Positions 34,334-40,563 of a stretch of 64,000 bases of DNA are shown piece by piece (position 1 is the stretch's first letter; every line of letters starts with the position of its first letter). Made by a program: the position numbers and the translations under genes. The stretch spans positions 62,001-126,000 of the forward strand of contig CASEFA010000002.1 in NCBI GenBank assembly GCA_949287095.1, read 5' to 3'. Under the pieces are notes generated by a model. The model saw only the letters and a program-made list of their open reading frames with translations. It was not told the DNA's origin and ran no database searches. This DNA comes from an uncultured Bacillota bacterium (GTDB lineage Bacteria > Bacillota > Clostridia > Peptostreptococcales > Anaerovoracaceae).

Positions 34334-34394
34334 TAGCGTTTTGCAGAATCCGCAGGCAAGTCATGTGATGGCGACTGCATCGACTTACAAAAAA

Positions 34395-34409
34395 TGTTAA
34401 AAGCTAACA
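34395..34409 (+). promoter_or_regulatory. TGTTA-N5-TAACA palindrome upstream of adhesin promoter
   Basis: Perfect inverted repeat ending seven bases before the -35 box; a candidate activator or repressor site. Confidence 0.3.
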
Positions 34410-34416
34410 AAAAGTG

Positions 34417-34445
34417 TTGCAGGTAAAAAGTCCCTATGGTATAAT
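34417..34445 (+). promoter_or_regulatory. Promoter of the large adhesin
   Basis: TTGCAG (34417-34422), 17-base spacer, perfect TATAAT (34440-34445). It places the start point near 34452, leaving a leader of about 190 bases. Confidence 0.75.
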
Positions 34446-34451
34446 TTACCA

Positions 34452-34644
34452 TGTGAAAGGCTGAGCCGGAGCCGCTCCTGTGTGGGGGCGGCTTTCACAA
34501 CTGGATAAATGCGGCGTTACAACGCCTGTTTCAGAGCAGTTTCAATTTTGAAGCTGCTCTTTTGCTTATGAAAGGAGATGATCGTATCGGGAGTACAGGA
34601 AAATCTAAAAGAAGTCAGAGTAAATTAAGAGGAGGAGCAAAAAA
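34452..34644 (+). ncRNA. Structured 5' leader of the adhesin, candidate riboswitch or attenuator
   Basis: The 311 bases between deoC and the adhesin hold no clear gene. The transcribed part folds into: stem GTGAAAG (34453-34459) with CTTTCAC (34492-34498) enclosing GCCGCTCC with GGGGGCGG; a small hairpin GGCGT-TACA-ACGCC (34513-34526); and a terminator hairpin at 34533-34563. About 80 bases then lead to AGGAGGAG and the ATG. The arrangement of conserved-looking stem, then terminator, then gene resembles a regulatory RNA, but it does not match c-di-GMP or other riboswitches I know. Confidence 0.5.
34533..34563 (+). terminator. Terminator inside the adhesin leader
   Basis: AGAGCAG-t-TTCA pairs with TGAA-g-CTGCTCT (34533-34560), then TTT. 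It lies upstream of the gene, so it should stop transcription before the adhesin unless read through. Confidence 0.7.
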
Positions 34645-37600
34645 ATGAGGATAAGGAAAGGACGTAAGCTGTTCGGCATCGGTGTTATTCTCGCTGTGCT
34701 TATCAGCAGCATACCCATGCATGCACTGGCTGCAGATACGGCTACAGTAACATATCAGGGATGCGCATACAGCTATAACGCTTCAGGAGGGAAACCTGCC
34801 GAGAACATGCACGGCAAATTCACTACGAACTTCGGCGGAGGTGTGGCGTACTGCGCTGAACATGGAAATCCGCCGCCTACAGGAGAAACTCCCGGTGCTT
34901 CTAAAACTTTAGCTTTGGAAGCTTACAGCAACACTTTAATCAAGAAAATTCTTTTCTACGGGTGGAAAGGACCGGAACAGTGGGACGGATTTTCAAGCAG
35001 TACATATAACAGTGTATATAAACTTTTTGCAGGGAATGCAGCCTCAACCAGAGCGGAAGCGTGCGGAATATCTGTGACAGGTATGGCGCTCTCCAGAATC
35101 TATCAGAATTACGGCGGAAAAGGAAGATGGTATGACGTGTCAGGCCTTGAAGCCTTCCTGAACTATGTGAACAGTAAGCCTGCACCGCCTGAAGGATTTA
35201 AAATCTACAGGCTGAACGGAAGCGGCAATATGCAGGATCTGTTTGTATGGGAGTACCGGTCTGAAGGATATCTTAAACTGAAAAAAGTAGCGGCATCCGA
35301 CGGCAGTCTTATAGCGCATTGTCCGGATAACTACAGCCTTGCCGGAGCCGTTTATAATGTATATTCCGATTCTTCACTTACGAAAAAAGCCGGCAGCTTT
35401 ACGACTGATAAGAACGGTAACTCGGAGACCCTCACGCTGGAGGCGGGAACGTACTGGATAAAAGAGGTGAAAGCTTCTCCCGGCTTTAAACTGGACGGGA
35501 AAGTGTATACGGTTAAAGTGAACAGCGGGCAGGTTACTGAATTTACGGGAAAAGAGGAACCGAAGTTCAATCCGCTGGAAGTTATATTATCTAAAACAGA
35601 CGCGGGAGGCAGCGGTCCGTCACCCGAACTTGCCCGAGCTGAATTTACAGTTAAATATTATAAAAAGCTGACGGACGATGTTTCGGGGCTCAAACCTGAA
35701 AGAACATGGATATTCCGAACTGACAGCAAAGGTCTGGCTGCATTTGATGACAGCTGTAAAGTGGGCGGAGATCCGCTGTATAAAAATTCCAAGGGGATAC
35801 CGACGGGACTGATAGGGACTTACGAGATATTTGAAACAAAAGCTCCGGGCGGATATATGCTGAATGAGGAACATTTCATCGTACGTGTTGAAGAAGGCAC
35901 ACCGGGCGGCCCGTCCACCGTATACAATGCGCCGGTAATTCCTGAAGAACGAAAGGAAATCCGCTTCAATGTGGTAAAAGAGGATGCCGATCTGGGAAAG
36001 CCGGTTGCACAGGGAGAGGCCACTCTCGAGGGAGCGGTGTTCGGTCTTTATGAGAAAGACGGGACCCTCGTCGAAAAGTATACCACCGACAGGAACGGCG
36101 CTTTCATGACAGATTACTACGCCGCCGAATATGCCTTTGAGAATGAGCTGTATCTAAAGGAGATTACCCCGCCTGACGGATATCTTCTGAACGGGGAGAA
36201 GTTCGTGCTCGATGTTGAAAATCCCGCTGATATTGCGGTCCGGTACACAACGGTGGACAGCCGGGTGAGTGATGAAGTCATAAAGGGAAAAATCGCACTC
36301 ATGAAGTCTTTTGATGACATGGATGAGACCGGGATTCAAAAGCCTGAAAAGGACATAGAATTTCAGGTGTACCTTAAGTCTGCGGGAAGCTACGATGAGG
36401 CAGAGGAATACAACAGGGACATCATAAAGACCGGAAAAGACGGATATGCCGAGACTAAAGAACTTCCTACAGGCATATACACAGTTCATCAGCTGAATTC
36501 TACTGAAGGCCACGACAGAATCAGCGACTTTGAAGTGAACATATCTGAGAACGGAGCCGTTTACAGATACATTCTGAACAACGCGTCAGTCCGGGCAGAC
36601 CTACATGTGGAAAAAGTGGATGCGGAGACAGGCAGGGCGATAGTGACTGCAGAAGCGGCCTTTAAGATATGGAACATGGATGAGGACGAGTGGGTAAGCT
36701 TCGATATGCATTACCCCCACGACTATGTGCTGGATGAGTTCGTGACAGATGAAAGAGGCGGGTTCTGTCTGCCTGAACCTCTCAGGTACGGAAACTATGA
36801 ACTGCATGAGATAAAAGCTCCGGAAGGTTATGTGCTGTCTGAAGAACCGATACCGTTTAAGGTAGACGGCGGAAAAGAGGCGATATCAATCAGAGTTGAA
36901 AATACGCCTCAGAAAGGGACGTTATCTCTTGTAAAGACCGGAGAGATACTGAAGGCATGGCAGAAAAATGAGAGCGGAACGCATGCGCCTGTATACGTGT
37001 GTGAAAACCTGAAAGGCGCAGTGTTTCAGATAATCGCCGCTGAGAACATAGTTACCGGAGACGGCACAGTAAGGGCCGAAAAAGGAGAGGTCGTATCAAC
37101 AGTTACGACGGATGAGAACGGAAAGGCAAAAACAGAAGCCCTCTATCTCGGGAAGTATATCGTAAAAGAAAAGACTGCTCCGGAGGGCTATGTGCTTGAC
37201 GGCAGGGAGTACGAGGCAGAGCTTAAGTATGGCGGTCAGGATGTGGAGCAGGTAAATGCCGCCGTAAATGACGGTATTCCTGTAGAAAATGTCCTGATAA
37301 AGGGAAGCATAGAGGGGATAAAGACTGATGAAACAGGCGAACCTCTTAAAGGCGCACTGATAGGACTTTTTTCGTCAGAAACAGAGGATTTCACGGACGA
37401 AAACACCCTGATGACTGCCGTATCGGATGAAAGAGGACGTTTTGCTTTTGAAGAGATTCCTTACGGCGAGTATATCGTGGTGGAGATAGAGCCGCCTGAC
37501 GGTTTTACCCTCAGCGGGGAAAAATTTCCTGTGAAAATCGATGAGAACGGCGTAACTGTAAGCATATCAATAGAAAACGAGAGAATAAACCCGGTCCCTA

Positions 37601-37770: not shown

Positions 37771-37847
37771 GCGTCATTAGCTCAGTTGGATAGAGTGCCT
37801 GATTCCGAATCAGTAGGCCGCAGGTTCGAGTCCTGTATGACGCACCA
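37771..37847 (+). tRNA. tRNA-Arg(CCG), CCA encoded
   Basis: Complete cloverleaf: acceptor GCGTCAT/ATGACGC, D-arm GCTC/GAGT, anticodon loop TTCCGAA with anticodon CCG (reads CGG), T-arm with GGTTCGAGTCC, discriminator A and genomic CCA. The outer anticodon-stem pair is C-T. Confidence 0.95.
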
Positions 37848-40420: not shown

Positions 40421-40563
40421 GTATGAAGAAGAAGTTATCCGCTTCTCACCCTGCGGACAGAAGGCTTTGTCAGGGTTAATACTTTGAAAACGGTGCGCTT
40501 TTTGCGTGCGTATGAGCGGATACTTCATGTATCCGCTTTTATATTACACAGGAGGTGCTCGTT
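40421..40563 (+). ncRNA. L20-type leader with terminator and antiterminator
   Basis: About 140 bases of leader before infC. TATCCGCT (40436-40443) can pair with AGCGGATA (40515-40522), the left arm of the terminator AGCGGATAC-TTCAT-GTATCCGCT (40515-40537, then TTT), so the two folds exclude each other. The AAAACGGTGCGCTTTTTGCG segment between them is a further hairpin. In Firmicutes ribosomal protein L20 binds such leaders and favours termination, lowering its own operon. Confidence 0.75.
40515..40540 (+). terminator. Attenuator terminator of the infC leader
   Basis: Nine-pair stem with a five-base loop and TTTT, located before infC. Confidence 0.8.

Follow-up and report, generated by a model that had tools for sequence, protein, structure and literature searches.

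The leader that precedes the gene of a 1021-residue adhesin in an uncultured Anaerovoracaceae bacterium is real: it is structured, and it is conserved in a pair of sister species of Avanaerovorax. Its best reading is one more instance of 5' control of known kinds, not a new riboswitch class. The leader lies in the window (the whole stretch of 64,000 nucleotides that was analysed), which comes from a genome of 1.95 Mb (G000). Our leading, still tentative interpretation is a cis-acting, two-part tuning of expression, in which an attenuator is followed by a STAB-SD-like docking site, GAAAGGAGATGATC; ligand sensing is unnecessary to explain the data. The leader is of interest as a possible way for an uncultured gut anaerobe to tune the expression of a large surface adhesin in the absence of any known riboswitch.

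In this scheme, transcription would start about 6 nt past TATAAT (near 34451), so that the transcript would open almost directly with a very stable hairpin. Following a small hairpin, a terminator of moderate strength would end a share of the transcripts near 34563, and those that read through would carry the 14-nt GAAAGGAGATGATC, predicted to bind the 16S rRNA tail while serving no start codon. By docking at this site, a 30S subunit would shield the long mRNA of the adhesin against 5'-3' decay, as for the cry3A STAB-SD, and may also hold ribosomes near the true ribosome-binding site (RBS), about 50 nt downstream.

The adhesin (Table 1) contains seven SpaA-type stretches; no other SpaA-domain gene was found in G000. 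Its gene is located between a gene for a DeoC-type aldolase (deoC) on its 5' side and a tRNA-Arg(ccg) gene on its 3' side. Among named relatives, the same adhesin was found only in Candidatus Avanaerovorax faecigallinarum (G002), and no adhesin follows deoC in G001 and G003. In three species of the window's genus, each with a different adhesin, the tRNA-Arg(ccg) gene comes just 3' of the adhesin gene, and this flank is possibly an adhesin hotspot in the genus.

Table 1. Features of the adhesin locus and related elements (positions in the window unless a locus is named)
Feature	Position	Strand	Remarks
Two 15-bp direct repeats, CTTACAAAAAATGTT / CTAACAAAAAGTGTT	34384..34418	+	20 bp apart
Promoter TTGCAG-17-TATAAT	34417..34445	+	consensus match only; extended TG
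5' hairpin	34449..34503	+	outer stem, small junction hairpin, GC-rich inner helix
ORF1; ORF2	34509-34571; 34568-34648		chained to the adhesin by two ATGA overlaps
Small hairpin GGCGU-UACA-ACGCC	34513..34526	+	
Candidate intrinsic terminator	34533..34563	+	moderate; 12-bp stem, UUUU
GAAAGGAGATGATC, STAB-SD-like	34570..34583	+	13/14 complement of the 16S rRNA tail
GAAAGGAG			leader sequence assigned to the docking half
Adhesin RBS, AGGAGG at 34630	34630..34637	+	-12.3 kcal/mol with the 16S tail
Adhesin, 1021 residues	34645..37710	+	signal peptide, SpaA-type domains, PKTGD sortase motif
tRNA-Arg(ccg) next to adhesins	window 37771-37847; L097 1418-1494; L098 121-197		
Pseudoknot leader, examples	L013:1315-1395; L152-L171; L172-L201		other genomes of the family

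The elements described in the earlier note are confirmed, and the folding is beyond chance. The promoter is present as claimed (TTGCAG at 34417-34422, TATAAT at 34440-34445), with the addition of an extended TG at 34437-34438. Upstream of it, the second of the two direct repeats touches the -35 box, and both repeats are kept in G002 with one change each while the surrounding sequence has diverged, so they are possibly the binding site of an activator. The GTGAAAG/CTTTCAC arms (34452-34459 with 34492-34499) and the GC-rich helix within them (34470-34478 with 34485-34493) exist too, but in the minimum-energy fold the outer stem pairs only as UGUGA/UCACA, with a small GGC-UGA-GCC hairpin at the junction and the CUU taken up by the inner helix. 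The other small hairpin, 3' of this structure, was found where it had been described. The 116-nt block 34448-34563 folds at -52.9 kcal/mol, versus -34.8 kcal/mol when shuffled (z = -5.0, 0/200 shuffles), and the longer stretch 34452-34660 gives a folding z of -2.8.

Comparison of G000 with G002 delimits a conserved block at 34433-34591, limits that were chosen after the fact, with 3 changes in 159 positions versus 20 in 133 in the flanks (p = 3e-5); the block thus extends past the terminator, to just after GAAAGGAGATGATC. Two of the three changes fall in the apical loop and the third turns a U-G pair into U-A in G002, so that pairing is kept; from 34488 on, the two genomes are identical over 104 nt, and the terminator hairpin is perfectly conserved. 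The upstream flank differs at 14 of 80 aligned positions and by a 19-nt indel, and the spacer before the start codon at 6 of 53. Between these two sequences, the only ones available for the comparison, no compensatory change (on both sides of a pair) is found. DNA searches of 61 and then 350 genomes retrieved the leader in G000 and G002 only, with no copy in the 348 other genomes of the family, and neither a copy of its core in viral contigs nor a second copy within the genome was found. Other matches of the DNA search, about 20-46 nt long, were set aside as chance.

The hairpin at 34533-34560 is strong (-17.1 kcal/mol), but its U tract consists of UUUU only, followed by GC, and the d'Aubenton-Carafa-type score d ranges from -26.9 to +6.1 depending on the stem cut point (-3.4 when the last A-U pair goes into the stem). 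Values of d above 0 were obtained for 22 of 286 gene ends of G000 and 3 of 400 random 92-mers, the genome's own statistics being computed on 464 kb of its 1.95 Mb. The element called a textbook terminator is therefore better described as moderate; as to its position about 80 bases before the ribosome site, its end is about 67 nt away from the RBS and about 82 nt from the ATG at 34645. The order of a promoter, a GC-rich hairpin with a U tract, and an RBS is that of an intrinsic attenuator, and it is plausible that the hairpin terminates transcription. Elsewhere in the window, a terminator-like hairpin, GAGCGGATACTTCATGTATCCGC-TTTT (40514-40540), immediately precedes the infC start (IF3, with L20 downstream). 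Attenuation in the infC leader is known and the window's hairpin is placed likewise; it is without a match in Rfam.

Overlooked in the earlier note, GAAAGGAGATGATC begins about 7 nt past the U tract, and the conserved block stops just after it. It matches the tail of the 16S rRNA of the same genome, as checked in G000, and is nearly unique there: the pattern GAAAGGAGNTGATC has two occurrences, one in the leader and the other, in complementary form, within the 16S gene. Its pairing with the 16S tail amounts to about -18 kcal/mol, an energy that is not unique by itself since 87 overlapping windows in 0.93 Mb of strand positions reach -17.5 kcal/mol or below. No ATG, GTG or TTG lies at a usable spacing after it (the ATG at 34578 touches its SD core), so that translation cannot be initiated from GAAAGGAGATGATC in the usual manner. 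An extended, upstream SD-like sequence with no translation start is what characterizes a STAB-SD. In Bacillus thuringiensis, the non-initiating SD-like sequence of cry3A binds 30S subunits and blocks RNase J1 (PMC4113751); it shares with GAAAGGAGATGATC a position far upstream of the start codon and the lack of a protein product. Unlike in cry3A, the window's site is directly behind a terminator hairpin, the host belongs to another bacterial class, and the stabilising role is a predicted one. The leader thereby offers a natural test of whether a non-initiating 14-nt anti-SD complement stabilises mRNA outside Bacillus.

How much of the leader's effect would pass through termination is the main point on which the readings diverge. 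The leader could be a pure mRNA stabiliser in the manner of aprE or cry3A, with the hairpin and the extended SD protecting the transcript and the terminator-like hairpin hardly terminating. This is possible, though not probable: the hairpin at the extreme 5' end, the weak U tract and the conserved extended SD without a start codon all speak for it, as does the aprE leader of Bacillus subtilis, in which a 5' stem-loop and ribosome binding, not translation, matter for mRNA stability according to the title of Hambraeus 2002 (cited in PMC7509114). Both leaders combine a stable 5'-end hairpin with a ribosome-binding sequence, but the window's leader is longer and carries a terminator-like hairpin, and stabilisation would be its presumed role. 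On the other side, the terminator hairpin is perfectly conserved and terminators recur ahead of other adhesins. The attenuator half of the preferred, two-part reading is weakened by the short U tract and borderline d, and by the fact that terminators between tandem genes are common anyway; it is made plausible by the terminators found at the same place before other adhesins of the family. Could the terminator simply belong to deoC, the adhesin having its own promoter 3' of it? This is very improbable: 15 of 99 tandem genes do have a terminator in between, but a good promoter precedes the hairpin, none of similar quality follows it, and the conserved block runs on past it.

Regulation of the terminator by a dedicated factor was weighed along with these. 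Control by an RNA-binding protein or a small RNA, exerted on the 5' hairpin or by blocking the terminator, is rather improbable. It would agree with a conserved 5' hairpin whose changes are limited to the apical loop and one kept pair, and which a terminator follows; against it, nested folding gave no antiterminator fold, no candidate regulator was found, and the leader stands before a single gene in the genome. In pil1 of Streptococcus gallolyticus, a premature terminator in front of a pilus adhesin is opened when a leader peptide is translated (PMC3894217). Leader-peptide attenuation of this kind would require translation of ORF1 across the terminator and its coupling to that of ORF2 and the adhesin. 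Apart from this precedent, which shares with the window a premature terminator between promoter and surface-adhesin gene, ORF1 does span the terminator and the two ATGA overlaps are suggestive. Yet ORF1 and ORF2 are without an SD (-3.1 and -2.0 kcal/mol with the 16S tail), every change of ORF2 in G002 alters an amino acid, the leader contains neither GCAGA repeats nor any phase-variable or tandem repeat tract, and a 20-codon ORF is often expected by chance, so that such a mechanism is very unlikely here. Two further reading frames were rejected: the ORF at GTG34480, which stops within the loop of the terminator, lacks a start codon in G002, and the MGAAFTTG leader ORF, inside the GC-rich helix, has CTG for its GTG in that species.

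A new class of metabolite riboswitch, proposed in the earlier note, is extremely improbable. In its favour are the strong folding of 34448-34563 and a position before a clostridial-type adhesin that resembles, in the kind of target gene and the place in the transcript, the c-di-GMP-II riboswitches that precede adhesin genes in Clostridioides difficile (PMC6200980). The leader differs from these in matching no c-di-GMP riboswitch family of Rfam, as the earlier note had correctly judged for the c-di-GMP-I and -II motifs. No Rfam family matches it at the gathering score, and up to E = 10 only two chance matches appear, far below their gathering scores. The covariance search on which support for a new class was to rest went against it, as CM R1, a roughly calibrated two-sequence model run over 198 family genomes, returned elsewhere (with E down to 1e-7) only chance matches, which on inspection were unrelated hairpins and RBSs preceding unrelated genes, a tRNA gene among them. 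Conservation of the stem upstream of homologues is confined to G002; in G164, whose adhesin is the closest homologue beyond the genus (54% identity over the N-terminal part), the leader hairpins differ. Prefix folding, limited to nested structures, yielded independent local hairpins and no mutually exclusive terminator and antiterminator folds, and LoaP, a NusG paralogue, is absent from four genomes of the window's genus, each of which has only one NusG. Taken together, the lack of an Rfam match, the two-species spread, and the absence of alternative folds and of LoaP argue against a metabolite riboswitch, and an element known from two sister species and one gene, with neither covariation nor an antiterminator fold, does not make a new class. 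Of the proposed read-through device, the attenuator remains plausible (promoter, conserved hairpins, terminator, RBS), but the riboswitch part is unsupported.

Terminators ahead of adhesins are found well beyond the window. For genes in 464 kb of G000 that have 100 nt or more of upstream sequence, a same-strand terminator lies 15-200 nt before the start in 2 of 76 divergent cases and in 15 of 99 tandem ones. Among related adhesins of the family, 19 of 40 have a terminator 10-220 nt before the start, as do 18 of the 30 whose upstream stretch is 100 nt or longer, or of unknown length; the comparison pools genomes irrespective of kinship, and some tandem terminators in it must serve upstream genes. 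Several adhesins (G149a, G149b and G091) have two terminators, the first behind the preceding gene and the second beside the start of the adhesin, and those of G121, G014b and G187 have a promoter upstream of the terminator. In G003, of the window's genus, an adhesin near the same tRNA-Arg(ccg) is preceded by a hairpin unrelated to the window's and by a terminator whose end lies about 70 nt from the ATG, and the G164 adhesin has a terminator leader of other sequence. This suggests that what is kept would be the position of the terminator, not a shared aptamer. That sortase-type adhesins of the Anaerovoracaceae are generally under unrelated leader terminators, the window's leader being a regulated attenuator with a non-initiating docking site, is a broader proposal that we consider unlikely; the devices cited for it are the leaders of the window, G164, G003 and G121 and the pseudoknot class described below.

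Some of these leaders have features of their own. Near terminator hairpins ahead of adhesin genes, L114 (G149a) and L015 (G014a) contain short leader ORFs with good SDs that end in Pro-Pro-stop (MAKKLKGIPP* and MRKNVRPP*, respectively) and are possibly ribosome-stalling leader peptides. Upstream of the adhesin start in L023 and L027, an outer stem (GGCAAAATA...TATTTTGCC and GGCAA...TTGCC, respectively) encloses a terminator hairpin with its U tract, so that the U tract itself may be paired.

A different RNA, found on the side, is the better riboswitch-like candidate and more interesting than the window's leader. The leaders of thioester adhesins in G187, G125 and G323 share AGGUCUUAUCCGGCCGGGCC-AUUCGCAGGC-ANNNN-UGCGUGAGGAU, and a terminator comes next. 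The motif turned up in 18 of 350 family genomes by DNA search and, with the covariance model CM R2, in 32 of the 394 genomes searched across the order; these 32 come from the same family and represent 12 genera, with up to six matches per genome and none in the window's genus. No match was found in Rfam, phage or plasmid records, or viral contigs. The structure tested is an H-type pseudoknot, GCC:GGC interleaved with CGCA:UGCG, inside an AUCC:GGAU stem, in which 98.9% of cells are paired versus 16-40% in slid controls, and four pairs have changed on both sides. As the 3' strand of the second pseudoknot stem falls in the 5' arm of the terminator, pseudoknot and terminator should, to judge from the sequences, exclude each other, and the motif is a strong candidate for a new class of regulatory RNA. 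It deserves a study of its own as a terminator-coupled RNA standing before both thioester adhesins and mobile accessory genes: the genes 3' of it encode BrnT, DUF1016/YhcG, RhuM, ORF6N, KilA-N, Fic and TED/SpaA adhesins, and also an integrase, an IS605 OrfB fragment and an AbiEi-like protein (below Pfam's cut-off).
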